Positions 16,235 through 32,273 of a stretch of 64,000 nt of DNA are shown here, piece after piece. Each line of letters starts with the position of its first letter. Position 1 is the stretch's first letter. This stretch comes from Candidatus Brocadia sinica JPN1. Its GTDB lineage: Bacteria; Planctomycetota; Brocadiia; Brocadiales; Brocadiaceae. Under the pieces are notes generated by a model that worked only from the letters and a program-made list of their open reading frames with translations, made no database searches and had not been told where the DNA came from. The stretch lies in the NCBI RefSeq assembly GCF_000949635.1, contig NZ_BAFN01000001.1, positions 558,001-622,000 of the forward strand. The letters are read 5' to 3'. A program made the translations under genes and the position numbers.

Positions 16235-16619
16235 ATTTCAATCCCTTCTATTACAGGTCTTCATTCATACTGGCAGGGGGCTACAGATATTGCCATTTTT
16301 TATGTCGCAATCCCTTCTATTACAGGTCTTCATTCATACAATCGCAATAGACAGCATTACAAGGCTTTAGGCTTGTCGCAATCCCTTCTATTACAGGTCT
16401 TCATTCATACGAGGGGTTGCCGGTAGATGGTGGTTGCGCAACGTGTCGCAATCCCTTCTATTACAGGTCTTCATTCATACAAAAAGACCCTTGAAATTCG
16501 CACTTGGCCTACAAGTCGCAATCCCTTCTATTACAGGTCTTCATTCATACCCCGACCTAAAGCAAGTGGGGTGGGAGCAATGTGTCGCAATCCCTTCTAT
16601 TACAGGTCTTCATTCATAC
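16235..16619 (-). CRISPR. CRISPR array, six 36-nt repeats and five spacers
   Basis: Repeats at 16235-16270, 16304-16339, 16375-16410, 16445-16480, 16515-16550 and 16584-16619. On the plus strand each starts GTCGCAATCCCTTC and ends GGTCTTCATTCATAC. Spacers are 33, 35, 34, 34 and 33 nt. The first copy differs at its first bases (ATTT for GTCG), the normal sign of the leader-distal end. On the minus strand each repeat ends in ATTGCGAC, the same 8-nt 5' handle known from Thermus type III crRNAs. The array is therefore read on the minus strand, like the cas genes, with the leader on the cas2 side. Five copies are identical. Confidence 0.97.
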
Positions 16620-16721
16620 GGCACCCCTTTCCTTTCTCTTGTATTGACAAGTATTTACAAAATCGAGTTTTTACTATAGCGGACGTCCTAAAAGTTAGCC
16701 TGAAAATATTCCTGAAATATT
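16620..16721 (-). promoter_or_regulatory. CRISPR leader
   Basis: About 100 AT-rich bases between the cas2 stop and the first repeat in transcription direction. A -10-like TATAGT lies at 16673-16678 (minus strand). The upstream edge overlaps the tandem half-site motif at 16703-16723. Leader polarity agrees with the degenerate repeat at the other end. Confidence 0.65.
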
Positions 16722-16723
16722 TC
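16703..16723 (-). promoter_or_regulatory. Tandem 10-mer operator-like site, copy 1 (leader)
   Basis: On the minus strand half-site GAAATATTTC, one A, then GGAATATTTT. It matches copies 2 and 3 at 17 and 18 of 21 positions. It overlaps the cas2 stop codon and lies about 25-45 bases upstream of the leader -10-like box. Confidence 0.6.
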
Positions 16724-16997
16724 ATAAAAATATCTCCACTCCTTCCGGAACCCTGTCTCCCTGACCAAGCGCCACAAATTTACTACGAGATGGTAGTGGG
16801 TAAATCCGTATATCATCTTCGTTACCATCAATTATGTCTTTAAGTTTTTCCTTCAATTCCGTTAATTCCGGCCAGGCAAGTTTACAAAAAAACACCGAAT
16901 ACTGGATATGCGTGCCGATCCCCGAGAGCGTTTTAAAGACCTTCTTTAGCCTTTTTTCATTCGTAATGTCGTAGCAGACAATATAATTGCTCTTCAT
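16722..16997 (-). CDS. cas2: Cas2 (leader-adjacent copy)
   Basis: 91 residues with the Cas2 ferredoxin-like fold pattern: YIVCYDITNEKRLKKVFKTLSGIGTHIQYSVF, with the conserved Asp in strand one (YDI), then a C-terminal IYPLPSRS strand. Cas2 dimers bridge Cas1 dimers in the spacer integrase. It starts 14 bases after the degenerate cas1 gene and ends about 100 bases before the array, the usual end of an adaptation operon. It clearly differs in sequence from the second Cas2 at 19321. Confidence 0.92.
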   Translation of the reverse strand: MKSNYIVCYDITNEKRLKKVFKTLSGIGTHIQYSVFFCKLAWPELTELKEKLKDIIDGNEDDIRIYPLPSRSKFVALGQGDRVPEGVEIFL

Positions 16998-17011
16998 AAT
17001 TTACGATTAAA

Positions 17012-17848
17012 TTATAAATAATGCCTCAATTCCCCACCGAACCTCAGTTCCCTGATAAGCTCAAATATACCGTCAATAATATGCTCTGTCATGGTTACTA
17101 AAACGTCTTTCCTATTTTCAAAACGTACAGCTATTGCCTTTATATCTTCAGACGATATCCCTTTGCTTCTACGATGGCCAACGCCCCTTTTCCCACAAAA
17201 GAATTGAATGGATTGGATATCAATCTCGGGGCCAAGTATGTAGCAAATGTCCAGGGCAAGGCCAAAATCGCGCCTCCTGTGCATCACTCCCATATGAGGG
17301 TCGAGGTCAGACGATAGTAATTTGCCTACAACCATTTCCACAAAGAGGGCGGAAACGGCATTACGAATGAGTTGAAATATTTCATGATACGGCGATGTCG
17401 CATTATCTATTACTTGCTGATATTCTTGTTCTTTGAGACCGACCGTGATATAGTGATCCGGCATCTGCCTTTTCAAAAGCCGTTTCAGGACGTCAATCTG
17501 GACCCTCTGGCGATATGCCTTCAGAAAGGTCATAAACCGCTGGGTAGTATAATCCGACTCAAGGAATACCTTTTGATCTTTATACTGTTCCGGCAGATAC
17601 TGTTTATACGGCAGAGTTACCGCTATCTGGTTGCCCTTCCTGTCAAGGAATGTTACCGGAACATTATTTTGGGTAAAGAGGGTTATCAAACTGGTTTCCA
17701 GTTTAATATTCCCGGTAATGATCACCCGTTGAATCATCCTTGCAGGCACGCGCCTGCCGGACTTTCCCCCTTCCTTTACCACAAGGGAAGGGCCGTCTCT
17801 CATAACGTTGAGGGTCGTATTTTCATTCAGGTAAAGTGTTCTTTCCAT
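17012..17848 (-). CDS. Divergent Cas1 paralogue, probably catalytically impaired
   Basis: 278 residues. The N-terminal beta domain (LYLNENTTLNV..., VPARMIQRVIITGNIKLET, VPVTFLDRKGNQ) and the LDPHMGVMH segment show it is a Cas1. His190 of the metal site is kept, and Asp200 matches the first Asp. The metal-binding acidic residue three positions later (Glu244 in the neighbour, D-x-x-E) is Tyr203 here. No EG-A-x-x-Y glutamate helix is visible; the nearest candidate is Glu140 in LKEQE. About 40 residues of the usual C-terminal half are rearranged or absent. It overlaps the canonical cas1 by 26 bases, so the two are translationally coupled and may form a mixed complex. The alternative is a decaying duplicate. 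Confidence 0.85.
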   Translation of the reverse strand: MERTLYLNENTTLNVMRDGPSLVVKEGGKSGRRVPARMIQRVIITGNIKLETSLITLFTQNNVPVTFLDRKGNQIAVTLPYKQYLPEQYKDQKVFLESDYTTQRFMTFLKAYRQRVQIDVLKRLLKRQMPDHYITVGLKEQEYQQVIDNATSPYHEIFQLIRNAVSALFVEMVVGKLLSSDLDPHMGVMHRRRDFGLALDICYILGPEIDIQSIQFFCGKRGVGHRRSKGISSEDIKAIAVRFENRKDVLVTMTEHIIDGIFELIRELRFGGELRHYL

Positions 17849-18785
17849 CCATGATCCTCACTGAAATATCCCGTATCTTCCTGGCAATGTCTTTTCTCAC
17901 CGGTTCAACCCATGCTTCGTAAACCGGATAAAACTCCTTCCTGGCATCTTTCTTTAAATAAACGCCGTCATTCTCCTGCACGAAATTTTTGGGGGTATAT
18001 TTTCCATCTTTAAACATCTCCCACACGAATCGGTCTGCCATGGGTCGAAACGGTTCAATCAGGTCACAGGCAAGGGATTCACGCCCGTAATCAAAGCAAT
18101 GATAAAAGCCAATCGTGGGATCAAGCCCTGCAACCTGTATCTCCCTCACTGCTTCATAATGAATCAGCGTATAGCAGAGTGACAGCATTGCATTTACCGG
18201 GTCTTTCGGTGGCCTTCTGGTCCGGGTTTTAAACCCAAGGGACTCCGGGAACAGTTCGGTAAATGCGGAGAAATATGCATTTGAAGCAGCGCCCTCATAT
18301 CCTCTCAGACTCTCAAGGGACTCACATCCTGAGGTAATCCCCCTTAAAATATTCTCAAGAATACCAAAGACATTACAAAATGTCGCCTTCACATTGTCCC
18401 TACCCTTGATTTTTATAGCCTCTCCAAGAAATCTGCTTTGCTGCCCTATCTTTTCAATGATAATTTCTTTCGATACCGTTATAGCAAAATCATTGTCCAG
18501 GGACTTTTCGTATTGTTTGACCCTCAGCATGCCGTTATTATGGATGCGGCCGGTGAGGATGCCTCTGTATTGAAGCCCCCTGCCTGACAGGAATATAACG
18601 TTACAACCGTTGTCTGCAAGTTTGTGGAGTACACTTGTTTCTATCGTATTACTACCGGCTATTATTACCCGGTTGAGAGGCCTTATAGGAACGATGCCCT
18701 CCCTTTCCCCGTCCAGGTAAAAGGCGATTGATTCACCGTCGAGTTTTATATGATAACCCTTTCTGTCGATATATAAGGTGCCCAT
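17823..18785 (-). CDS. cas1: Cas1 integrase (canonical)
   Basis: 320 residues with a complete catalytic set: Glu164 in RGYEGAASNAYF, DPVNAMLSLCYTL, His229 in LDPTIGFYH, and Asp241/Glu244 in ACDLIEPFRPMAD. It is the metal-dependent integrase that joins new spacers into the array with Cas2. The C-terminus continues through the typical YLKKDARKEFYPVYEAWVEP segment. The gene overlaps the following divergent cas1 and belongs to the cas1-cas1-cas2 unit next to the array. The gap 5' of it holds three palindromic repeats. Confidence 0.95.
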   Translation of the reverse strand: MGTLYIDRKGYHIKLDGESIAFYLDGEREGIVPIRPLNRVIIAGSNTIETSVLHKLADNGCNVIFLSGRGLQYRGILTGRIHNNGMLRVKQYEKSLDNDFAITVSKEIIIEKIGQQSRFLGEAIKIKGRDNVKATFCNVFGILENILRGITSGCESLESLRGYEGAASNAYFSAFTELFPESLGFKTRTRRPPKDPVNAMLSLCYTLIHYEAVREIQVAGLDPTIGFYHCFDYGRESLACDLIEPFRPMADRFVWEMFKDGKYTPKNFVQENDGVYLKKDARKEFYPVYEAWVEPVRKDIARKIRDISVRIMDGKNTLPE

Positions 18786-18952
18786 GGTATCGTTGTAATA
18801 ATTCGAAATTTATGCCTTCCGGCAACTACACATGATAGCCGCATGACTTTAGCCTGCGTGGAACTTGTGATAAACTCTTTTATATATGCCCCAGAAGCGC
18901 ACCCTAAAGGGATGCGGCTACCTGATTGAAATTCCTTGCAATATTTCATTAT

Positions 18953-18984
18953 GCACGGACAAACAAAGTTTGTCCGTGCCACCC
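18953..18984. repeat. Island palindrome (GACAAAC type)
   Basis: GCACGGACAAAC-AAA-GTTTGTCCGTGC followed by CACCC. Arms of 11-12 bases, loop 3. Confidence 0.8.
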
Positions 18985-19148
18985 TGTTTCTTTTTCCCCT
19001 TGTCCACAGATTCTATAGTTTCATTAATATTATTTTTCACAACCATGATGTTCTGCCGGTTTTCTTTCAATACTGATGCATGTCTCATTGCGGTGTTTAC
19101 CAATGGTGCGTTTTTTAAGATGACGTCCTCAACAAACGAATGCCATGA

Positions 19149-19180
19149 GGGTGGCACTGACAAACTCTGTTTGTCAGTGT
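19149..19180. repeat. Island palindrome (CTGACAAAC variant)
   Basis: GGGTGG then CACTGACAAAC-TCT-GTTTGTCAGTG. It forms a pair with the next element across a 34-base linker that recurs in similar form at 24881-24912. Confidence 0.8.
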
Positions 19181-19214
19181 TCCGCAATCCTTATCGTTGC
19201 GTGTATTCAAACAT

Positions 19215-19272
19215 GCACGGACAAACGATCCCAGTTTAAAACATACTGGGACATGGTTTGCCTGCGCCACCC
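19215..19272. repeat. Island palindrome, long-loop form
   Basis: Outer arms GCACGGACAAAC and GGTTTGCCTGCGCCACC (imperfect), with an inner GATCCCAGTTT / AAAACATACTGGGAC stem. Same flanks as the short palindromes. Confidence 0.75.
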
Positions 19273-19320
19273 CGAAAATCGCTTACATAAAACGAAAATT
19301 CCTGTACAATTACGTATCAT

Positions 19321-19602
19321 TTAACCGAAATAAAAAAACTCCGGGTCTTTTGGAGGCACTGCTGCACCAAGGGTATGAGACCTGCTTCTCCCGTCCAGGG
19401 AAAAGATATGAATCCGGTCTGTACTTTCATCAATAATACTTGATACGCCGACAATAACCTCTCTCAGCTCGCCCTGTGTAAGGAAACACTCAAATACAGA
19501 CTTCTGGCCGCCCGTGCTGAAACCCTTCAGGAAATACCTTACCCGGTTAAGACGTTTGGATGTGCATATATCGTATGCCACAATATAAAGATCTCTTTGC
19601 AT
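19321..19602 (-). CDS. cas2: Cas2 (second copy)
   Basis: 93 residues: LYIVAYDICTSKRLNRVRYFLKGFSTGGQKSVFECFL carries the conserved strand-one Asp and helix, followed by the RIHIFSLDGRSRS strand. Cas2 family is clear. It lies about 535 bases upstream of the canonical cas1, separated by three palindromes, and 225 bases downstream of cas6. Two cas1 and two cas2 in one locus suggest either two adaptation modules brought together or a four-gene module. A 29-base hairpin (19607-19635) and an operator-like site (19643-19663) precede its start. Confidence 0.92.
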   Translation of the reverse strand: MQRDLYIVAYDICTSKRLNRVRYFLKGFSTGGQKSVFECFLTQGELREVIVGVSSIIDESTDRIHIFSLDGRSRSHTLGAAVPPKDPEFFYFG

Positions 19603-19827: not shown

Positions 19828-20841
19828 TCATCCTCCTTTGTGACCAAAGATCGTTGCTGTTTCATCATACGAGATTATGTATTTTCCCAGTCCAAAACTT
19901 GTTCCCTTTCCAACGTGGAGTATCTTTCCTGCCTCAATGAAAGGAGAAAAAGGCGAAATAGCGCCGGTATATACGATATTTCCTACGAACCCGCCGAGCT
20001 TCATCCTTGTATCCTGCCTTCGTGAGTACCGTTCCCAGTCATGCCATCTAAGGTTTGTTTCCTTTATACTTATTGTACGTGCCTTATCGATAAGCATGCG
20101 GTGATAGCCCTCATCTGCCGGACTTTTTTTACAGTGATAATGCCTGAGTAAAAACAGTCGTCTCAGGAGTTGTCTGATGAAGACATGAAATTCCAGGTCA
20201 ATCGTCAGTTTACCGTCATACTTGAGACGGGTAGGAGTGAGAAATCTCAAGGTAATTTCTTCAGGGGCATCATGTACGGAGTCGGAAACATTTTCCTCCA
20301 TTATGGCAAGGATAGACGGACGTAAGTCTATGTATTCTTCGCTGAAGGATTCGACTTTACGGGTTTTGGAACGGTAAATTGATTGCGTATCGCCCCGGGG
20401 GCTGACCGTATGCACCTTCTGAAGCTGGCAACTTCCCCTTCCCCTTCCAATGCCATTTTTCCCCAGCAGACCAAAGGTGTAAATAAAATAGGGCAGGTAT
20501 TGTATCGCATCGCCAATGAGTATGAGACCCATGGAAAATGTCTGTCCTGCGAGATACCGTTGTTTCTCTTCCTCAGGTGGTTCTATAATAAATGGATGGG
20601 GTATGGCATTTACCTTACCAAGGATGTTGGCTTCATCAGGAGAGTAAGATTCAAAGATATATGCATAGACACATCTTTGTTTGAGCAGGCAGTCACGGCA
20701 ATCCCCTTTCTTCAGGGCGCAGACAACCTTTTTGAACTGTGTGCCGAATGCCCCTCTGAAGGTTGACCCTTTGTATGAAGGAAGATATATTTCCTCTTCC
20801 GCCTCAAAAATAAAGGTAAAGCGTTTATAGGGTATCTTCAT
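19828..20841 (-). CDS. cas6: Cas6-type pre-crRNA endoribonuclease (DUF2276-like RAMP)
   Basis: 337 residues. It opens with a RAMP strand (YKRFTFIFEAEEEIYLPSYKGSTFRGAFG), then a Cys cluster (CALKKGDCRDCLLKQRC) typical of this Cas6 group, IIEPPEE, and a central GLLGKNGIGRGRG glycine-rich loop. It ends with ISPFSPFIEAGKILHVGKGTSFGLGKY, the G-rich C-terminal loop of Cas6. Type III systems use such a protein to cut the repeat and leave the 8-nt handle. It is encoded with the two CARF genes upstream and cas2/cas1 downstream on the same strand. Confidence 0.88.
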   Translation of the reverse strand: MKIPYKRFTFIFEAEEEIYLPSYKGSTFRGAFGTQFKKVVCALKKGDCRDCLLKQRCVYAYIFESYSPDEANILGKVNAIPHPFIIEPPEEEKQRYLAGQTFSMGLILIGDAIQYLPYFIYTFGLLGKNGIGRGRGSCQLQKVHTVSPRGDTQSIYRSKTRKVESFSEEYIDLRPSILAIMEENVSDSVHDAPEEITLRFLTPTRLKYDGKLTIDLEFHVFIRQLLRRLFLLRHYHCKKSPADEGYHRMLIDKARTISIKETNLRWHDWERYSRRQDTRMKLGGFVGNIVYTGAISPFSPFIEAGKILHVGKGTSFGLGKYIISYDETATIFGHKGG

Positions 20842-21001: not shown

Positions 21002-22315
21002 TTACGTAACTTTCATTGAATTACCTATGCTTTTTAAATCATTGGGAAACTGTATTAATTCAATTCTTTTCTTTTTGTCCGTTTTATATAAACTATCTAT
21101 CAGTTGTCGGAGCAGTTCGATGATTGCGGGGGAGATGTTGTTGTAGACATCACAAGCAATTGCTTTAAGTCCATGAGCAAAAAGACTCTCATTCCTGTAT
21201 TTGAGAAAGTCTTTTATCCTGTTTTTACATTTCTGGTGCCACGGATGAATAACAGGGTCGTTTAATTCTGACAGCAGTTCATAGCCCTGCATGAGACCTA
21301 TTTGTATTTTATTTTCTTCATTTCGGTGTTTTTCCAATTTTGTTTTAAATTCTTCCCTTAATGTAGATAGCTGTCCCAGTGCTATATTTCCTGTATCCTG
21401 ATTGTATTGGGCTTTAAGCCGTATTTGAGCCACAAGTTCCAATGACCGATATATCCGCCCAATTGCATCTTCATAACGACCCTGATTTGCCCTGCGCTCG
21501 GCATTAAAAAGAATATCTTCTGCAATAATATAACTTAAGACATTATTCTCAACATCGGTTTTTATCTTTTCAAGAGGAATTACATAGTCCACGAAATATT
21601 TTCTGTAGGGATTCAAGTATTGATACGCCGAGACGTGATCAAAGCGATCCCAAGCATCAAAGCCTTTGCATATGTTCAAATATGTTTGAATTTCCTGATT
21701 CTTCTCGTTGCTCAGGGAAAGTTTAATTGATGACTCCAGCAGGTTTATAGCGCCCGAAAAGTCAAATCTGGCGAGTAAAGATTCCGCCAACGCAAGATTT
21801 TTATTTGCCAGTGTGTCGTAAACTGCAATTGGTCTGATGTATTCGGTTTTGTCCGTCACTTTATCGAGATTTGCCCTCGTTCCGGCAACGAGAACAAATT
21901 CACAGGTACCGTCATCCAGAGCGGCAGAGGCAAGTCCGGCAGTCATGCTCTTTGTGCCGCCGGTATAATCGATAACTATTTTATCAGGATTAAGTCTCAA
22001 CCGTATTTCCGTTACTTTCTTTTTGCTTATCTGATAGCAGTCATTGAGATTATCAAAATCTTTTATCTTTACGCATTCCCACGAGCCATCTTTTAAATTA
22101 CACTGCGAAGGAATCCCCGGAAGAAAAGATTTTTTTGAGGGGTCGGTTTTATCCCTCACTTCTACTCTTTCGGTAATTTGAATATAAGACCCTTTTGTTG
22201 TTGGGAGGTCATCGGAACAGAGAAATACAATATAATCAGGTTTGTTATCACGTATCGATTTAACTACAGGTTCATGCGAACCGCCAACGGTAAGAATTAA
22301 GACCTTTTTCATCAC
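21002..22315 (-). CDS. CARF-HEPN protein, TIGR02710 family (Csm6-like RNase)
   Basis: 437 residues. The N-terminal CARF domain opens KVLILTVGGSHEPVVKSI and contains the family segment VIDYTGGTKSMTAGLASAAL, the cyclic oligoadenylate pocket region. A long helical middle follows, and then a HEPN domain with Arg374-x6-His381 (RNESLFAHG), the RNase active pair. The family is the TIGR02710 CRISPR accessory group. Predicted action: cleave RNA when Cas10 makes cyclic oligoadenylate. A paralogue lies immediately upstream (22765), sharing YTGGTK and the R-x6-H motif but quite different elsewhere, so the two may respond to different ligands or cleave different sites. Confidence 0.88.
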   Translation of the reverse strand: MMKKVLILTVGGSHEPVVKSIRDNKPDYIVFLCSDDLPTTKGSYIQITERVEVRDKTDPSKKSFLPGIPSQCNLKDGSWECVKIKDFDNLNDCYQISKKKVTEIRLRLNPDKIVIDYTGGTKSMTAGLASAALDDGTCEFVLVAGTRANLDKVTDKTEYIRPIAVYDTLANKNLALAESLLARFDFSGAINLLESSIKLSLSNEKNQEIQTYLNICKGFDAWDRFDHVSAYQYLNPYRKYFVDYVIPLEKIKTDVENNVLSYIIAEDILFNAERRANQGRYEDAIGRIYRSLELVAQIRLKAQYNQDTGNIALGQLSTLREEFKTKLEKHRNEENKIQIGLMQGYELLSELNDPVIHPWHQKCKNRIKDFLKYRNESLFAHGLKAIACDVYNNISPAIIELLRQLIDSLYKTDKKKRIELIQFPNDLKSIGNSMKVT

Positions 22316-22369
22316 GTAATCGTTCGCCCTATTCTATGAACTGCGCAAAACGTTGAACCCATAACAAGT

Positions 22370-22401
22370 GGGTGGCACGGACAAACTTTGTTTGTCCGTG
22401 T
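22370..22401. repeat. Island palindrome (ACGGACAAAC type)
   Basis: GGTGGCACGGACAAAC-TTT-GTTTGTCCGTG, perfect 11-base arms. Confidence 0.8.
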
Positions 22402-22491
22402 TTCGCTATTCCATTTTCAATAGCGAATGGTTTTTCAGTGTTGTTTTGAGTTCCTGATTTAGTAGATAACTATTTACAAGTTTTCCAGAAA

Positions 22492-22533: not shown

Positions 22534-22762
22534 TCAAAGATTTATTTCATCAACAGCTAAAACAACCTCTCTTTCTTCTATATACCAACCCGCACCTGAC
22601 CACTTCCATTCTTGTGGATTAAGGACAAGTCCTCTACGCACTGGATTTCTGTGCATATAGTGAATTTTTTCAAAGAGTTCACCTTTGCTTGTGATATTTC
22701 GATCGTGGCCAGTACGGTTTGGCAAAATCTAAAAACCTCTCTCGACCTGAGTTTAACAGTTA
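22534..22762 (-). pseudogene. Remnant of a REP-associated tyrosine transposase
   Basis: The last 50 residues (RNITSKGELFEKIHYMHRNPVRRGLVLNPQEWKWSG...) match the C-terminus of the complete transposase at 24245 almost residue for residue. Homology continues upstream in another frame (KLTVKLRSREVFRF) to about 22762, so a frameshift and a large 5' deletion have destroyed it. Palindromes flank it on the downstream side, as expected for such a transposase and its own elements. Confidence 0.8.
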
Positions 22763-22764
22763 AT

Positions 22765-23991
22765 TTATATATTTAATCTGGGAAATACTATTACGTCTTC
22801 TGCCCTGAATATGTTGAGATCCAGGATAAATTCCTTGAATTTCAGGTAGGTATTTTCACCTGCACAGTCAAATCCATGGACAAGATACGAATTGTTTCTC
22901 TGTGATTGAATCTGGCGGAATTGCGGTAACCGTTTATGAAATTCCTTACCCAGGTCATCCCCCAGCACTTCGAGTAATTCAAATGCGGTGCTTTGTGGTA
23001 TCTTTATCTTTCCATCTTTTTTGTCTTTGTATTTACTAATAAATGCATCCCTCACCTGCTGCGGTATTTTTTCCTCACTCACATTACTTGTATCTACCCC
23101 ATGTTTGTCCAGTAACCTTTCCTGGGCGAGCATTTCAACGACCCTGTAGAGCCGCACTATGGCGTCATCTATTTTTCCCTCGTCAAAGCGTCGTTCTGCG
23201 TTTGAGAATATATCCAGGATAAACAACCTGTCAGGCTGTCTTCGTTGTTGAGAAAGTAGTTCCAGCTGTGGTTTTAGCTGAAGGGTGGCCTTTGCAAACA
23301 ATCGTATTCTTTCGTCTTCTGTTTCCAAGAGTTCCTCTATCCGTGCCCTTTCAAATTTCCCCTTTGCGTCGCCGTGTCTGAACAGGTCCCAGTTGTAGTA
23401 ACCATCAATAAGAAAGCTCAATTTTTTAAATACCGTTTTGTATCTGGTGCTCTTTTCCAATGCTTCATCGGCCAACTCCTTCGCCGCCTTGAACTGGTTG
23501 GTATTAAACAAGAAGGATATCTTCTTCCGTTCATCTATGGCAAGAAAGTCCCAGGGGTTAACGCTCTTGCAGACCTTTTCCTTACCATTGATGACGATCC
23601 CCACACCACCCTTTGTTCTTTCTGCCCCTCCTACATACGAAAAGCTAAATCCGTGTGTAATGGCAGAAAGGGAGAGGGCGACGGACATATTCTTAGTCCC
23701 GCCGGTATAGTCCACAATAACCTCATCGCTGCGGTAGCCCTTTGACAACACACGTTTAACAGCCTCTTCCGCCTTGCCGAAGCAGTGGTAGAGGTCGTTG
23801 ACATCATCAGCGAGGGTTGTTTCGTTTTTTATGCTGTGCCCTGCTTCCTGTATCCCTTTTTTAATCTCCGGTACATAGTCGCAGGTATCCTGAGAGGCGA
23901 GGAAGGACACAAATTCCGGCCGGTATTCTGTAATGGATTTTATAATCGGCGCTGTCGTCCCGCCCACAGAAATTATCATAGCCCTGACCAT
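22765..23991 (-). CDS. CARF-HEPN protein, TIGR02710 family, second copy
   Basis: 408 residues. The CARF start is RAMIISVGGTTAPIIKSITEY, with VIVDYTGGTKNMSVALSLSAI and VGGAERTKGGVGIVINGKE in the ligand-binding domain. The C-terminal HEPN motif is Arg365-x6-His372 (RNNSYLVHG). It is organised like the neighbour at 21002, with a shared mid-region helix FSNAERRFDEGKIDDAIVRLYR (compare FNAERRANQGRYEDAIGRIYR). Predicted cyclic-oligoadenylate-activated ribonuclease acting with the type III-A effector. The intervening transposase remnant suggests the pair was split by insertion after duplication. Confidence 0.88.
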   Translation of the reverse strand: MVRAMIISVGGTTAPIIKSITEYRPEFVSFLASQDTCDYVPEIKKGIQEAGHSIKNETTLADDVNDLYHCFGKAEEAVKRVLSKGYRSDEVIVDYTGGTKNMSVALSLSAITHGFSFSYVGGAERTKGGVGIVINGKEKVCKSVNPWDFLAIDERKKISFLFNTNQFKAAKELADEALEKSTRYKTVFKKLSFLIDGYYNWDLFRHGDAKGKFERARIEELLETEDERIRLFAKATLQLKPQLELLSQQRRQPDRLFILDIFSNAERRFDEGKIDDAIVRLYRVVEMLAQERLLDKHGVDTSNVSEEKIPQQVRDAFISKYKDKKDGKIKIPQSTAFELLEVLGDDLGKEFHKRLPQFRQIQSQRNNSYLVHGFDCAGENTYLKFKEFILDLNIFRAEDVIVFPRLNI

Positions 23992-24244: not shown

Positions 24245-24829
24245 TCATAGATTCATTTTATCAACTGCTAAAACAACCTCTCTTTCTCCTGCATACCAAC
24301 CTGCACTTGACCACTTCCATTCCTGTGGATTAAGGACAAGTCCTCTGCGTACCGGATTCCTGTGCATATAGTTGATCTTTTCCAGGAGTTCGTCTTTGCT
24401 TGTGATATTTCGGTCGTAGCCAGGACCGGCTTGCCAGAATCTAAAAACCTCCCTTGATCCGAGTTTAACAGTTAATTTATCCAGCCAAGTACGATCATTT
24501 TTCTCCAAATAATGTTTCGCCCTTCTCGCTACTGACTGTTTAATAGCTTTTAAAAACAGAGAAATGTTGTAATTCTCAACCAACGGATAAACCAAGAGGT
24601 GAGCATGTTCTGGCATGATTACGTATGCCCACAGGGCATATTGATATTTCTCTTTAGCCATGATAATTGATTCAATAAGCCAATTTCTCGTTCTATCTTT
24701 ACTCAACAATGGAAGACCCTGATAGCAGGAAAACGTTAAAAAATGCGCATGGCATGGAACATTATAATGACGAATGGTTTTTCTGTGTTGCTGGGTTGTA
24801 TTGTAATTTGGTTGTATAGGATTTTTCAT
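24245..24829 (-). CDS. REP-associated tyrosine transposase (RAYT, IS200-like Y1)
   Basis: 194 residues. It opens with RHYNVPCHAHFLTFSCYQGLPLL, carries the HUH motif in MPEHAHLLVYPL, and has the C-terminal YMHRNPVRRGLV motif with the candidate nucleophile Tyr, then W..SS..WY. These are the features of RAYTs, single-stranded DNA transposases that recognise and presumably spread REP palindromes (established for the E. coli and Pseudomonas families). Palindromes stand on both sides (24131-24229 and 24848-24971). The reading frame is intact. Confidence 0.9.
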   Translation of the reverse strand: MKNPIQPNYNTTQQHRKTIRHYNVPCHAHFLTFSCYQGLPLLSKDRTRNWLIESIIMAKEKYQYALWAYVIMPEHAHLLVYPLVENYNISLFLKAIKQSVARRAKHYLEKNDRTWLDKLTVKLGSREVFRFWQAGPGYDRNITSKDELLEKINYMHRNPVRRGLVLNPQEWKWSSAGWYAGEREVVLAVDKMNL

Positions 24830-24847
24830 TTTTTTATGCGTTCAACA

Positions 24848-24880
24848 GGGTGGCACTGACAAACTCTGTTTGTCAGTGTT
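24848..24880. repeat. Island palindrome (CTGACAAAC variant)
   Basis: GGGTGGCACTGACAAAC-TCT-GTTTGTCAGTG, 20 bases upstream of the transposase start on the minus strand. Confidence 0.8.
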
Positions 24881-24912
24881 GCACATTCCATATCAATGTG
24901 TGTATTCAAACA

Positions 24913-24971
24913 TGCATGGACAAACGATCCCCGTTCAAGGCGTACGGTGACATGGTTTGTCCATGCCACCC
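24913..24971. repeat. Island palindrome, long-loop form
   Basis: GCATGGACAAAC, then GATCCCCGTTCAAGG / CGTACGGTGAC inner bases, then GGTTTGTCCATGCCACC. Outer arms perfectly complementary. Confidence 0.75.
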
Positions 24972-26236: not shown

Positions 26237-27506
26237 TTAATTTTCTATTATCAATTTTACCCATCCCAAAGTATCCTGCTCGTTATTTGATAAGTTTACA
26301 ATACGCCGTGTCTTTAGGAAATTACCGCTGTAGCTTGTGTTTTTCGTGGCATGACAAAAGACATTATTATAAAGGTCTTTATCTTTATCTTTAACAAGCA
26401 ACCCTATCGTGAGACTAAGATATCCTTCGTTTTTGCCTATTCGGATAATGGGACTCGTTGGGATGTTTTGTTGCATTATATATTGAAGTATTGAAACTAT
26501 TTTTGGTTTATTGAGTTTTGAAAAATAGCCTATTTCTTCATAAAGAAGCCTATCTGTAAACTCATAACAACACTGTAATAGATTTTTTATGTCTGAAACC
26601 ACCCATTTTTGTTCATGGGTAAAACCAAGTTTATCAAGTATTGTCTTATTATTCTCTAATTTAAAACCCTGGCAGGTAAAGACCGTATCTTTTTTGCAAA
26701 GTTCCTGAAAAAGGGGGAAACCTCTGCTTATCCCCGTTACCTCAAAGTTTGAGACAAATAAACAATTAATGGATGCTATTAACTCTGTATCTCCTATATG
26801 GAGTAATTTAAGAAGGTCGTATTTTGCATCATTTTTGTCAATGACTCTAAAAAGTTTATTTTGTAAGGTATCTTCTATTTTCCCCATTTCGTTAGTAAGT
26901 TTCTTTTTTACATCATTAACCCATCTTCCTTTTTGTCCTGATATTTGTTGTAACTCTTTTCTATAGTTATTCCCGAAATTTTCTAACTCTTTTTTTAAAA
27001 TATCTCCAATGACCTTCATCTTGTAAGAGATGATAAGCTACAGCAGTTCTTATCCCACCTTTTATCTCCGTACCAGGAATGTATGACTTATTGTTTTGCT
27101 TGGTAAAACAGTCAATATCTACATTGCTAAAAATTTTCGTTTCTGCTTTGACAGAATAGAGGAAATTATTATTGAACTTGTTTTTTGTAGTCGTATCTCT
27201 TATAGAATTTTCGATAAATTCTTTTAAACTTAACTTTTTTTGTGCATCTCTAAGGGTTTGGTTTATTTTTCTCTTTTCCTCTTCGTCTCTTTCTTTTCTT
27301 TTTTGCGTTTCTAATCGTTCTATTTCTCCAATGTTCTGTTCAAGCCACAACATAAATCTTTGTTTTTGTTGAGTTGTAAGATTTTCCATAATCTTATTTG
27401 AATCATATAACAAAACATTTTCTCTATTTGCTATATATGCCAATCCATTATATTTTTCACCATTCCCAATATGAACCGGTGATAAAGTTTTAATTTGAAG
27501 TCTCAT
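26237..27506 (-). CDS. csm5: Csm5 RAMP subunit, frameshifted at an A7 run
   Basis: The N-terminal part (27506 to about 26970) starts MRLQIKTLSPVHIGNGEKYNG after a good GGAGG seven bases upstream. It includes YIPGTEIKGGIRTAVAYHLL, the Csm5/RAMP opening and Gly-rich segment. The C-terminal part (26237-27019) is in another frame and ends DTLGWVKLIIEN, the Csm5 end. The frames meet in TTTTAAAAAAAGAG near 26995; removing one A gives a continuous protein of about 420 residues (YFKKELENFG). Csm5 caps the 3' end of the Csm-crRNA complex. The break may be an indel, a sequencing error or slippage at the A run. Confidence 0.8.
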
Positions 27507-28546
27507 TTTGAACCTCCAATATTGCCAAACACAGGAAAAGCGAATCCATACTGCCTTATTTTTTGACCACCTATTTCTTTGACTACAGGACATTGACCAT
27601 AGAATGGTTTTCTTTCTTTAGCCTCAAAACAAGAACCTTCTTTCAGATATATAACCTTTGATTTCCAGATATCCTCACCCTTAAATTCTGCCTCAGAGTC
27701 TACTTTAGAACGATACGGAAATATTGCATAAAACATGGATTTACTCTCTGGGTTTATTTCAGCAATATCAGGAATATATCGGGAAAGGGTGATAAAATTA
27801 CAAGCAGTATCATTTCCTACGGAAATTGTATTTAATGTCTCTATCTTAAATCTTCCCTTCCCTACTGAACGATTGCCGCCTATACCCTTGTCTTCCAGGT
27901 AGCGAAAGATTGGCTTAAAAGATTCAATATTATCCGTCTTTATCAGGAAATGCAGTTTAAATGCAGGACTTGCAAAGTATTCCTCCTGATAAAAGGTCTG
28001 CCCCTCCTCGCCAGTAGACATGGTAAGCCGATCAATAGCATTTTTTTGTACCAATTCACTTTTCAGTAAAGGTTCTTTCTCTACAAAATTGAACCCTTCT
28101 AATTCCTTTTTGCTCATTAATAGCTTCCCTTTGAGTTTCACTTCGTCATTAAGATATTCCTGAAATAATATCTTTTCTGATACGTTATTCAAAAATCTGC
28201 TAAATAGGGCAAATGAAAAGTATTCAGATTTTTTAAATTTCTTATACTTAGTGATAATTTCAACCTTTTCTTTTTTTATCTTTGCCATTTCATAAATATC
28301 AGATGCAGAAAGGCCAGGCGATGTAGGTTTCGGGAAAAAGAAAATGTCGTTATTACATTCAATATAAGGGAAAGAAGAAGAAAGTATAAATTCCGGCTTT
28401 TCCTGATAGTTTTCTAAAATTGTTGCAAGTTTGGTTTCGTTATATATCCTCTTTATCCCCCAGCAAATGGCACCGAACAGGGTATCAGATGAAGGAAATC
28501 CTGAAAAAGGTGACACTGGACTAAGTTTTATTTGATAGTTTTTCAT
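27503..28546 (-). CDS. csm4: Csm4 RAMP subunit
   Basis: 347 residues. Opens with YQIKLSPVSPFSGFPSSDTLFGAICWGI, the Csm4/Cmr3-type first strand with (S)DTLFGA. Contains YASPAFKLHFLIK and the glycine-rich GIGGNRSVGKGRF loop. Csm4 binds the 5' handle of the crRNA and contacts Cas10. The start overlaps csm3 by 26 bases and has GAGGG upstream; the stop overlaps the csm5 start by four bases, giving tight translational coupling. Confidence 0.92.
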   Translation of the reverse strand: MKNYQIKLSPVSPFSGFPSSDTLFGAICWGIKRIYNETKLATILENYQEKPEFILSSSFPYIECNNDIFFFPKPTSPGLSASDIYEMAKIKKEKVEIITKYKKFKKSEYFSFALFSRFLNNVSEKILFQEYLNDEVKLKGKLLMSKKELEGFNFVEKEPLLKSELVQKNAIDRLTMSTGEEGQTFYQEEYFASPAFKLHFLIKTDNIESFKPIFRYLEDKGIGGNRSVGKGRFKIETLNTISVGNDTACNFITLSRYIPDIAEINPESKSMFYAIFPYRSKVDSEAEFKGEDIWKSKVIYLKEGSCFEAKERKPFYGQCPVVKEIGGQKIRQYGFAFPVFGNIGGSK

Positions 28547-29375
28547 CTTTACCCTCTATTGTTTTTAATAAACTATCAAAACTTTTATAAATATCTCTGG
28601 CATTTTTACAATTATCGTTCACTGGTACTACTAATTCATCCACACCTTTAGTATAGTAAGCCAGGCTTCGTTTCATAATCTTAATATTTTCAAATACCAC
28701 CTTACCAGAACCTCTGCTTCCACTCCCACCAAGTGCACTGTCCTCAAGGAGCATCATACCTTCAAAGACCTTTTTCAGTTTTTGAATGTCGTCATTCTTG
28801 TAAAGGTCAAAGAGCATCTCAACTTCAAAAACAGAATCGGCAGGCACCCTTTCCATTGACCGCGGCATTGCTTCCGACGTTAGCCTGTCTATTACATTTT
28901 CACTCTTTACTTCTGTATAGATTTTTTCGCCAAGGTATGTTTTCCATGTTTCAATTGTTCCTTTCCTCTGCTCTTCTGGCAAAATCTTCCCATTATCTTC
29001 ACACAGCCCTTTTGGAAAACTGTCACGTATTGTAAGACGTGTAGGTTCTTTAACTGACGTTGCAGCAGAACAGCCATATATAAAACAAATGTCACAATTT
29101 CCACATTCGCATAGTTTGCCTTTCCACTTTCCATTTTCTTGTTTAAAATTTACTTTATTATTAGCCCACTCTAACAAACTTCTCATTTTCCCTTTTAAAG
29201 AAGAACCAGGAATATACGGATACCCTGTAATCGGGTCTTTGATTACCGGATTATCCATACCACCAATTTCAAAACCTTCGTCAGTACCTCCAATATGAAG
29301 TCCTGTAAGACAACGTAAATCTGCTTTAATAATATATTTCCCTGAAAATTCGTAATTGCTCTTTTCTTCAGTCAT
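28521..29375 (-). CDS. csm3: Csm3 backbone RAMP nuclease
   Basis: 284 residues: TGLHIGGTDEGFEIGGMDNPVIKDPITGYPYIPGSSLKGKMRSL. Asp41 in GGMDNPV is the target-RNA cleaving aspartate of Csm3 and the GSSLKGKMR stretch is invariant in the family. A Cys-rich insertion (CECGNCDICFIYGC) and a final GGSGSRGSGKV loop follow. Several copies form the Csm filament and cut bound RNA every six nucleotides (known for Csm3). Strong GGGGGA ribosome site upstream. Confidence 0.95.
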   Translation of the reverse strand: MTEEKSNYEFSGKYIIKADLRCLTGLHIGGTDEGFEIGGMDNPVIKDPITGYPYIPGSSLKGKMRSLLEWANNKVNFKQENGKWKGKLCECGNCDICFIYGCSAATSVKEPTRLTIRDSFPKGLCEDNGKILPEEQRKGTIETWKTYLGEKIYTEVKSENVIDRLTSEAMPRSMERVPADSVFEVEMLFDLYKNDDIQKLKKVFEGMMLLEDSALGGSGSRGSGKVVFENIKIMKRSLAYYTKGVDELVVPVNDNCKNARDIYKSFDSLLKTIEGKDEKLSNKT

Positions 29376-29378
29376 TTT

Positions 29379-29792
29379 CTAATCCCCCTTTTCCATTTTA
29401 TGATAGGCAAGTACCGCAGAGAGAAAGTCCACAAAACAATTAAAATCCTTAACTGTTGGTATTTTTTCAGGATTGAGACATGTCTTCATCAAGTCATAAA
29501 AGTTTTTACTGATGAGATTTCTCCCTAGCGCATAAGCAAGTTCAGGCATTAAGAGATAGAGTTCAGCTTTTTCTACTTTAAAGTCATTTTTTTTGCCTTT
29601 ATAGTTTGCCTGTATCTGTTTAATATGACCAAAAAATTTTCGCAATTGTGTAACTTTCATTTTTTCTCGTACGTCTTTTGCTATTATATGTGCAGCGCCA
29701 TTCTCTTTTGCGTAAAATTCAGGGTCAATAGTCGAAAATGTTTTAAGAGTCTGAATATTTTGCTTCACGTTATCAATAGTTATTTCTGGCAT
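29379..29792 (-). CDS. csm2: Csm2 small subunit
   Basis: 137 residues, all helical: DVREKMKVTQLRKFFGHIKQIQ and LYLLMPELAYALGRN are typical of Csm2, the small subunit that forms the belly of the type III-A complex. It is placed between cas10 and csm3 with gaps of three bases on both sides. The GGGGGAG ribosome site lies seven bases before the start. No catalytic residues expected. Confidence 0.9.
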   Translation of the reverse strand: MPEITIDNVKQNIQTLKTFSTIDPEFYAKENGAAHIIAKDVREKMKVTQLRKFFGHIKQIQANYKGKKNDFKVEKAELYLLMPELAYALGRNLISKNFYDLMKTCLNPEKIPTVKDFNCFVDFLSAVLAYHKMEKGD

Positions 29793-29795
29793 TTT

Positions 29796-32195
29796 TTACT
29801 CCCCCTTTCTTAATTTCAGTAAGGCATAACTTGTCGGTATTTGAATATGTTTAAAATAACAATTTTTATCTGTAATAAGTGTTTCTTTTAATTTATTTCT
29901 TAGTTCATCGTCTTTAACATTCCTTGCCAACTGATAAATAATGGCAGGGATAAAATTGGGGTCTTGTCCACTTTTGTATTGTTTGTGTTTTCTTAACAAT
30001 TCATGAACAAAACCCCTGGGCAGCTTTTTCCTGGAATTCTCACTGTTAATGTAACTGTGTAAATCCTCGCCAAAATCGAGCAACTCTTTTACACATACTC
30101 CACCATTAACAATCCATTCTACCGTATCCCCAAAGAGAGTTATTCGTTTTCTGCCATTATCTTTAGAAGTATTCAATTGTTCGCCAGCAGCCTTTGCCGC
30201 AAGGCTTATTGGATATTTGGGTTTGCAGAGGAATATCCCGGCAGAAATGTTTATATCGGGATTATGGCAGGTATAAGCCTTGAATTCATCCTGTATTTTT
30301 AGTGCAAGTTTTGGCATTTCACTCCATGGACCAATTATCAGGAGGTCGTCACCGCCTGAATAAACAGTATAAAAAATCTGTGTTACCTTGTCTCTATGCT
30401 CCCATTTTGATTCACTTCTCCATTGTTCAAAGATTTCATTACATATCTTATTCAGATAACCACCAAAAAACATGTCCATCGAACGGCTTAACGCAGCTAT
30501 CCTTGATATGGACTTTCTTTTGGAATGTTGTTCTTCCTCAAGTCCAAGAGTAAAGATAAGCCCAAGGTGGTCAACGTCCATCTTTAGTATTCCAAGTCGT
30601 TTATCTCCAATACTTGTATCGGCTATAATTTCAAAACTCAAGACATTGCCTTTTTTTACTTGTTTATCTTCGTCGGTCGGGTCGTTGCCGATTGAAAAAT
30701 CTGCATTTGCCAAAGGTGCCGTGTTTCCTATGAAACGAAAACCAGTTTGAAGCTTATCAAGTTTATTTATCTTTTCGATAGCCAAAATCTTTTTCGATTT
30801 TAGCAAATTTTCGGTTATCAGCTTGTCGTTTTCCAGCAAGTAAACTGTACCAAACTCACCAAAAGGAACGGGTAAACCATCTATATTTTCCAAATCCTTG
30901 TTCCTAAAAATCAGATACGAAGTATTTGGAAGCTTGTTGCCTATATTTTTGTGTAAATTGCAAAGTTCACATGGCTCATCATTTGTTACTGTACTGATAC
31001 CACAAGCCTTACAGACCTTAATTACGTTCCTGTCGGAAGTTTCTTCAATCCAGAAGGTAGCGTCTGTAAAAGAAGACAAAAATTTCTTCTTTTTGGCAAT
31101 CGTCAATTTATCATTTAACTTCAACAATAAATCGCCGTAGCCTTTTAATGTGTCTTGATTTGCTTCAACACTTTCAAGCACCAATCCCAGTTCACCACCA
31201 TACATTTTGAAGAGCCATTTATTGACATCGGTCTGAACACTTTTTAATATTTGTTTTGATTCTCCAGTATTGGGAAGGAGCAATTCAAACCTTCCACCTC
31301 CACTGTACAGGATATTTGTGCTAAATAAACTAACCTGTTCTATGATATGCCTTGCAATTACATCCTGAAGCAAAAGTAAATAAAACGACCGTCCTCTCAG
31401 CATCTTTGAAATACCTTTAACTCCCTGTGCCTTTGTAATCCGGTAAATAAAGTTCTGAATGCCTGATATATCGCCTCCAACAATGAGAAATTTATTATCA
31501 GAAGATTTATCCATTTTTTCGCAGTGATAAAGGCACCCGGTAATGGCGGCAGTAGTTTTAGCATGGTCAAAAAGTGAAATATCGGGTTCATCCTTGTATG
31601 TAGCGCTAGGAATACACCAGGTATATTTTTGGAGGATGGAATAAAGAATATTTAGATAAGAAGAAATGCTATATGTTGGAATACTTTTAACTTCTTTTTC
31701 AAAACTTTCCCATAAATTTTTATATTCGTCTTTCAAACTTTGCCTGGGAAGTTTATCATTTGGAAATAACTTGCTTTTTTCAAGAGACAGCGTTTCTAGA
31801 CGGTAGGCAAAATCATTTGTATTTTTAGTATTATTACCCAAAGATATTTGTTCAAAAACTGATAAAAGCCGTTCTTTGTCAGGATCGCCAGTCTTTTCTT
31901 CATCATCAAGACTTATTCTATCCATACCAGCAGACAAGGCATCTGCAAGGGTAATTATGTCTGCATGATCATGATGTGTATTTATTGCGGAAGCTATTTT
32001 TTCTTTTTCTTCCTCTCCCAATAAAATCCGTATCTTTTCTGCAAAAAGATTTTGAAAACATTCCAAACCTAAAGAAGCGTGATTCCTTGATTTCCGTGCT
32101 TTTTCGTCCAGTCCTCTTTGATAAAATTTTCCTATATCATGCAACAATGCCGCAAGCACAACCGTCTGATATTCCCTTTTCTGTTTTTCGTCCAT
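29796..32195 (-). CDS. csm1: Cas10/Csm1, type III-A signature protein
   Basis: About 799 residues. N-terminal HD nuclease: LLHDIGKF with His19/Asp20, and NTHHDHAD. First palm domain with GGDISGIQNFIYRI, a zinc-binding CKACG...CELC segment at about 400-430, then the second palm with the GGDD cyclase motif (YSGGDDLLI, about residue 614). The D4 helical tail closes the protein. Both active centres look intact, so ssDNA cutting and cyclic oligoadenylate synthesis are predicted. An ATG at 32207 is possible, but GGAGA lies at the right distance before 32195, so that start is preferred. It heads the csm1-2-3-4-5 operon. Confidence 0.96.
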   Translation of the reverse strand: MDEKQKREYQTVVLAALLHDIGKFYQRGLDEKARKSRNHASLGLECFQNLFAEKIRILLGEEEKEKIASAINTHHDHADIITLADALSAGMDRISLDDEEKTGDPDKERLLSVFEQISLGNNTKNTNDFAYRLETLSLEKSKLFPNDKLPRQSLKDEYKNLWESFEKEVKSIPTYSISSYLNILYSILQKYTWCIPSATYKDEPDISLFDHAKTTAAITGCLYHCEKMDKSSDNKFLIVGGDISGIQNFIYRITKAQGVKGISKMLRGRSFYLLLLQDVIARHIIEQVSLFSTNILYSGGGRFELLLPNTGESKQILKSVQTDVNKWLFKMYGGELGLVLESVEANQDTLKGYGDLLLKLNDKLTIAKKKKFLSSFTDATFWIEETSDRNVIKVCKACGISTVTNDEPCELCNLHKNIGNKLPNTSYLIFRNKDLENIDGLPVPFGEFGTVYLLENDKLITENLLKSKKILAIEKINKLDKLQTGFRFIGNTAPLANADFSIGNDPTDEDKQVKKGNVLSFEIIADTSIGDKRLGILKMDVDHLGLIFTLGLEEEQHSKRKSISRIAALSRSMDMFFGGYLNKICNEIFEQWRSESKWEHRDKVTQIFYTVYSGGDDLLIIGPWSEMPKLALKIQDEFKAYTCHNPDINISAGIFLCKPKYPISLAAKAAGEQLNTSKDNGRKRITLFGDTVEWIVNGGVCVKELLDFGEDLHSYINSENSRKKLPRGFVHELLRKHKQYKSGQDPNFIPAIIYQLARNVKDDELRNKLKETLITDKNCYFKHIQIPTSYALLKLRKGE

Positions 32196-32273
32196 AGTGT
32201 TCTCCATTATTTATTCATTTCCAGGCAAAAGTTCAGTAGACAGCGAAGGCACAAAGATAGCAAGGATTAGATT

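Follow-up and report, generated by a model that had tools for sequence, protein, structure and literature searches.

Paired cas1 and cas2 genes of a type III-A locus

The window analysed here is a stretch of 64,000 nucleotides (nt) of Candidatus Brocadia sinica JPN1 (contig NZ_BAFN01000001.1, positions 558,001 to 622,000), and it carries a CRISPR (clustered regularly interspaced short palindromic repeats) locus with two genes for Cas1 and two for Cas2. The genome is 4.08 Mb long; its closest matches are in Candidatus Jettenia, Loosdrechtia and Kuenenia, which are anammox bacteria, and these place it in their family, the Brocadiaceae. With falling coordinate, the minus strand carries, in this order, cas10, csm2, csm3, csm4, csm5, two CARF-HEPN nucleases, cas6, cas2a, cas1a, cas1b, cas2b, leader and CRISPR array (Table 1). 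A sequence-only reading of the window had placed the four cas1 and cas2 reading frames correctly; the leader and the six-repeat array were absent from it and are found here. The genes cas1a and cas1b overlap by 26 nt, and cas2b begins 14 nt past cas1b. The gap between cas2a and cas1a is 535 nt in the window, with REP (repetitive extragenic palindrome)-like repeats, and 8 nt in three relatives.

Cas1a matches the Cas1 profiles over its full length (PF01867, 268 bits; TIGR00287, 216 bits). Cas1b matches PF01867 with 56 bits in its N-terminal half only (profile positions 9–124 of 283), and its TIGR00287 score (49.5 bits) is under the NCBIfam equivalog cut-off of 71.7 bits. It is also matched by the Cas1 models of PADLOC, and a profile–profile comparison with Cas1a gives a probability of 98.8. 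The ligands that the sequence-only reading assigned to Cas1a (Glu164, His229, Asp241 and Glu244) are exact, and they are invariant in 16 of 16 orthologues. In Cas1b, that reading had seen His190, Asp200 and a Tyr203 standing at an acid position, with no recognizable EG helix. The residues and their alignment stand: D200 pairs with D241, Y203 with E244 and K139 with E164 in the profile–profile comparison, and MAFFT gives the identical pairing. What needs refining is their conservation, since Y203 is replaced by His in the five closest relatives, and position 190 is variable (H in nine, N in three, D in two and K in one of 15 sequences).

Across these 15 Cas1b sequences, the Glu164 position is K or R in 13; the Glu244 position is Y, H, F or R and holds an acid in none; the two catalytic acids never occur together. 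The EG helix is indeed not present: the G-x-E-G and RPPxDPxNA motifs are found in 16/16 Cas1a and 0/15 Cas1b. The catalytic Glu-His-Asp-Glu set is incomplete in Cas1b, with K139 and Y203 in place of acids and a residue 190 that varies, and the predicted loss of the active site is systematic in the family. Mean identity within Cas1b is 0.47 in the N-terminal half versus 0.32 in the rest.

An AlphaFold model from five Cas1b rows alone is poor (predicted local distance difference test, pLDDT, 52.5). With Cas1a paralogue rows added to the alignment, the pLDDT is 72.5 and the predicted template modelling score (pTM) 0.62, adequate for fold recognition and too weak for metal-ligand geometry. The top Foldseek and VIA-align matches of this second model are all Cas1 (best PDB Z up to 15.6), and by the model Cas1b retains the Cas1 fold.

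Both small reading frames are Cas2 (PF09827, 76 and 57 bits). Cas2a and Cas2b form one clade each (support 100/99 apiece), which bears out the earlier description of two Cas1 near two distinct Cas2. Their cores are distinct (STGGQKS in Cas2a, HIQYS in Cas2b), and so are their conserved C-terminal tails (FFYFG in Cas2a, GVEIFL in Cas2b).

Distribution, selection and co-divergence of the module

Among 50 Cas1 sequences placed in one tree, Cas1b groups as a single clade (100/97), its partner Cas1a as another (95/89), and the other Cas1 fall outside both. The internal branching order is similar in the two clades, and the pairwise distances of Cas1a and Cas1b correlate (r = 0.97, 15 loci). With a profile of the Cas1a clade (A6), 18 genomes (7 Brocadiaceae and 11 others) reach 307 bits or more, and no other exceeds 263 bits. 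All 18 have Cas1b; since most of the loci behind the profile had been picked because they carry Cas1b, the independent genomes are the four outside its rows (G015, G624, G640 and G686).

The ordered set cas6, cas2a, cas1a, cas1b, cas2b is carried by seven Brocadiaceae genomes. Among 84,980 species genomes scanned, a further carrier is a deltaproteobacterial metagenome-assembled genome (MAG) with tandem cas2a, cas1a, cas1b, cas2b and cas6, its proteins being 39% (Cas1b), 51% (Cas1a), 61% (Cas2a) and 64% (Cas2b) identical to those of the window. In the phylum of this MAG, 395 genomes were sampled and 13 of them have Cas1b. Ten further loci were read there (eleven with the MAG), and each holds the two Cas1 genes along with both Cas2 subfamilies; G640 and G686 have Cas1b matches, and their Cas2 genes were left out of the locus reading. 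The overlap of cas1a and cas1b is usually 17–29 nt across loci, and in two of the ten further loci (L069 and L071) the genes are several kilobases apart. A search of plasmids for the module gave no match, and a search of IMG/VR for viral copies confirmed none.

The frames of cas1b are kept at full length across two phyla, down to about 20% identity. In YN00 estimates on six Brocadiaceae genomes, the ratio of nonsynonymous to synonymous rates (dN/dS, omega) is 0.13–0.23 for cas1b, 0.13–0.25 for cas1a and mostly lower for the cas2 genes, with dS close to 1 or higher in several comparisons and unreliable in some pairs for the short cas2 genes. The sequence-only reading had proposed a search for the tandem pair in other genomes and a measure of selection on the degenerate copy: relatives in two phyla have the pair, and cas1b evolves with the same dN/dS as cas1a, with no sign of relaxed selection. 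By these data Cas1b is a conserved, predicted pseudoenzyme and an apparently obligate partner of Cas1a. At locus L041, Csm3 is 40% and Cas10 30% identical to the window, whereas cas6 and the four adaptation proteins are at 82–87%; the effector genes diverge more than the adaptation proteins, and therefore the dual-Cas1/dual-Cas2 module, by this comparison, travels as a unit.

The Cas1b family is already catalogued, as entry PDLC01185 of PADLOC-DB ("Cas1, diverged variant, second in the loci"). This model matches Cas1b only, in 7/7 genomes, and finds no match in 14 control genomes, of which nine have ordinary Cas1. The description fits, as a second Cas1 stands beside a canonical Cas1 in all inspected loci. 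The scores are low (21–36 bits in these genomes, in the N-terminal half only), and the model has no curated cut-off; the strongest match is the very divergent member L070 (60 bits). The entry says nothing on the partner Cas2, on activity or on mechanism. In the open-licence literature on tandem, second, inactive or diverged Cas1 we found neither a description of the module nor the source of PDLC01185, and a description may exist elsewhere. As an obligate set of two Cas1 and two Cas2, the module seems to be a variant of the CRISPR adaptation machinery that has not been described before. What is new is that the family is tied to a second Cas2 subfamily and co-occurs obligately with one Cas1a clade, along with the measurements of selection and the finding that the active site is lost systematically.

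Array, leader and neighbouring genes

The distal repeat, at the low-coordinate end of the array, is degenerate, and the leader is for that reason placed in the stretch adjoining cas2b. Its sequence is conserved in the other Brocadiaceae loci where an array is readable beside cas2b. The spacers differ between these arrays although the leader is conserved, so adaptation continued after the lineages split. The 3′ end of the repeat, GAAGGGATT(G/A)(C/A)GAC, is common to the window repeats and to arrays beside distant dual-Cas1 modules (L046:10522-10844, L065:54-784, L070:8838-13196 and L072:8726-11990). In Candidatus Kuenenia hertensis (L042:4610-6980), about 2.4 kb of unrelated reading frames lie between cas1b and cas2b, with cas2b and the leader retained.

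The type III-A assignment follows from profile matches to cas10/csm1 (TIGR02578, 652 bits), csm3 (TIGR02582, 211 bits) and csm5 (TIGR01899, 43 bits), together with cas6. The two overlapping frames of csm5 join at a run of seven A (about 26990–26996), and the break may be a frameshift, a sequence error or homopolymer slippage. The two CARF-HEPN nucleases are of the same family and non-identical; relatives show one clear counterpart only, that of the copy at 22765–23991. REP-like palindromes (core CACGGACAAACTTTGTTTGTCCGTGCCACC) are numerous across the cas locus between 18940 and 34280 (for example at 18942–18989, 19148–19272, 22362–22402 and 24847–24971). Copies sit in the gap between cas2a and cas1a of the window, which is not so in several relatives. 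A transposase-like reading frame (24245–24829) lies among them, with a fragment of the same frame at 22534–22725. Elsewhere in the genome there are further cas1 genes or fragments (G000:C1, at 298134, 302709, 346001, 360803, 777728 and 3962282), some with internal stops; the genome therefore has other adaptation modules, partly broken.

Table 1. Features of the CRISPR locus, in window coordinates
Feature	Position	Strand	Remark
CRISPR array, six 36-nt repeats (GTATGAATGAAGACCTGTAATAGAAGGGATTGCGAC on the minus strand), spacers 33–35 nt	16238..16619	-	
Leader, from the cas2b stop to the first repeat	16620..16721	-	Sequence kept in other Brocadiaceae loci
cas2b, second Cas2 subfamily, HIQYSVFFC core, C-terminal GVEIFL	16722..16997	-	
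cas1b, catalytically degenerate Cas1 (predicted), 278 amino acids, K139/H190/D200/Y203	17012..17848	-	Start codon within cas1a
cas1a, canonical Cas1, 320 amino acids, E164/H229/D241/E244, RPPKDPVNA motif	17823..18785	-	
cas2a, first Cas2 subfamily, STGGQKSVFECFLT core, C-terminal FFYFG	19321..19602	-	
cas6, common neighbour of the dual-Cas1 module	19828..20841	-	Cas6 PF10040, 72 bits
CARF-HEPN (Csx1/Csm6-type) ancillary nuclease, copy 1	21002..22315	-	
CARF-HEPN (Csx1/Csm6-type) ancillary nuclease, copy 2	22765..23991	-	
Type III-A effector genes, whole block	26237..32207	-	
cas10/csm1	29796-32207	-	Profile
csm2	29379-29792	-	Position and matches to relatives
csm3	28521-29375	-	Profile
csm4	27503-28546	-	Position and matches to relatives
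csm5, in two frames	26237-27593	-	Profile

A candidate heteromeric integrase and its alternatives

Known integrases are two-fold symmetric assemblies of four identical Cas1 and a Cas2 dimer, in which the active Cas1 stand at the ends of a channel, the inactive ones form its walls and Cas2 its floor (PMC12259127). Two of the four Cas1 perform strand transfer and the remaining pair holds the repeat DNA (PMC12259127, PMC8102632); the non-catalytic Cas1 of a type II-A system contacts the repeat (PMC6895254). Such (Cas1)4-(Cas2)2 integrases (E. coli I-E, type I-F Cas1-2/3 and type II-A) have the same fold as the proteins here and limit chemistry to two Cas1, as is proposed for the present module (PMC12259127, PMC8102632), but they contain one Cas1 gene product and a Cas2 homodimer, whereas the present module has two Cas1 and two Cas2 genes. 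In the Cas6-RT-Cas1-Cas2 complex of Thiomicrospira, where RT is a reverse transcriptase, the setting is likewise type III with cas6, and catalytic and non-catalytic Cas1 occur (PMC8102632); these are, however, conformers of a single fused protein. In the window locus Cas6 is separate and no RT was seen. The Cas4-1/Cas4-2 pair of Pyrococcus furiosus is an example of an asymmetric Cas4-Cas1-Cas2 system. In Cas4-Cas1-Cas2 (PDB 7mi5), a dedicated protein supplies the asymmetry between the prespacer ends, which comes from Cas4 and the protospacer adjacent motif (PAM), unlike in the window locus, where no cas4 gene was recognized.

Both Cas1 and both Cas2 genes, the loss of the active-site motifs, the purifying selection, the obligate co-occurrence and the co-divergence are read from the sequences. 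For these features the best explanation, which we judge somewhat probable, is that Cas1b is a pseudoenzyme in the non-catalytic position of a heteromeric Cas1a/Cas1b–Cas2a/Cas2b integrase. There would probably be two Cas1a–Cas1b heterodimers, bridged by a Cas2a–Cas2b heterodimer. Cas1a would perform both strand-transfer reactions, and Cas1b would be a wall subunit, binding DNA, Cas1a and Cas2. The unlike Cas2 subunits could break the two-fold symmetry, so that the leader and spacer sides, or the two ends of a prespacer, are told apart. The asymmetry that known integrases achieve with identical subunits would then be hard-wired into two genes. We infer in this way the formation of heterodimers, their stoichiometry, the division of labour and the directional function. 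Cas1 dimerises through the beta domain of its N-terminal half, and for this reason the better-conserved N-terminal half of Cas1b fits the role of a wall subunit. The C-terminal tail of Cas2 is, in known structures, the part that docks on Cas1, so the distinct conserved tails of Cas2a and Cas2b favour a heteromer as well. An asymmetric integrase had been suggested from the sequence-only reading on the strength of coupled translation; that suggestion is upheld in part, in that selection, spread and the finding of no Cas1a of this clade without Cas1b now make a heteromeric, asymmetric integrase the best explanation. A further step, that the four products form an intrinsically asymmetric integrase that itself sets which spacer end meets the leader, without Cas4 or PAM, is offered tentatively.

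Several points weigh against the heteromeric integrase. The test of co-occurrence is independent for the four genomes outside the profile rows only (G015, G624, G640 and G686), and a separate but obligate role of Cas1b would give the same co-occurrence and co-divergence. In two relatives cas1b is interrupted, by a frameshift beside a short array in G015 (L040) and by an in-frame TAG in G570 (L063), each of which may be a true loss or an error in the sequence. The weak model of Cas1b (pLDDT 72.5, pTM 0.62) leaves room for a rearranged metal site with E140 and D200.

On the other hand, Cas1b and Cas2b may form a separate accessory complex, for prespacer capture or leader recognition, that passes DNA to an ordinary Cas1a–Cas2a integrase. 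The gene order suggests two such pairs: cas2a stands ahead of cas1a, and in every locus inspected the next cas gene after cas1b is cas2b. The C-terminal tail is, moreover, distinct and conserved in each Cas2 subfamily. However, the overlap of cas1a and cas1b is the tightest junction in most loci, favouring co-assembly of Cas1a with Cas1b; the better-conserved part of Cas1b is the N-terminal domain through which Cas1 dimerises; and Cas1b has no extra DNA-binding domain. We consider the accessory complex rather unlikely. It is improbable that Cas1b is a regulator, such as a dominant-negative subunit that poisons Cas1a complexes to throttle spacer uptake: an inactive paralogue translated from an overlapping frame could plausibly inhibit, but regulators are usually lost occasionally, every Cas1a of the clade that was found is accompanied by Cas1b, and the second Cas2 would be left unexplained. 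Less probable again is an exchange of strand transfer for some other catalysis at a rearranged site (E140, H185, H190 and D200). Conservation lends it some weight (E140 and Y143 in 12/15, H185 in 14/15, D or E at the D200 position in 14/15), but the most divergent members (L069, L070 and L072) replace or lose most of these residues and keep the locus. The fallback of the sequence-only reading, a decaying duplicate of Cas1a, agrees with the lost active-site residues and with the frameshift or stop in two relatives, but it is very improbable given an omega of 0.13–0.23, the same as for cas1a, full-length frames in two phyla and a single ancient clade in place of repeated local duplicates; decay is rejected for the family and could hold for single genomes only, such as G015.

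Although a Cas1–Cas2 integrase has two-fold symmetry, it must place spacers in one orientation, and two of its four identical Cas1 take no part in the chemistry. With the non-catalytic Cas1 and a second Cas2 as separate genes, each position could be mutated alone, which would open the source of directionality and the part played by the silent subunits to direct tests. The module would also give a plausible function to a Cas1 family otherwise found as a profile name only. An asymmetric integrase, if true, would matter especially for type III systems, where the spacers must be antisense to the target RNA.

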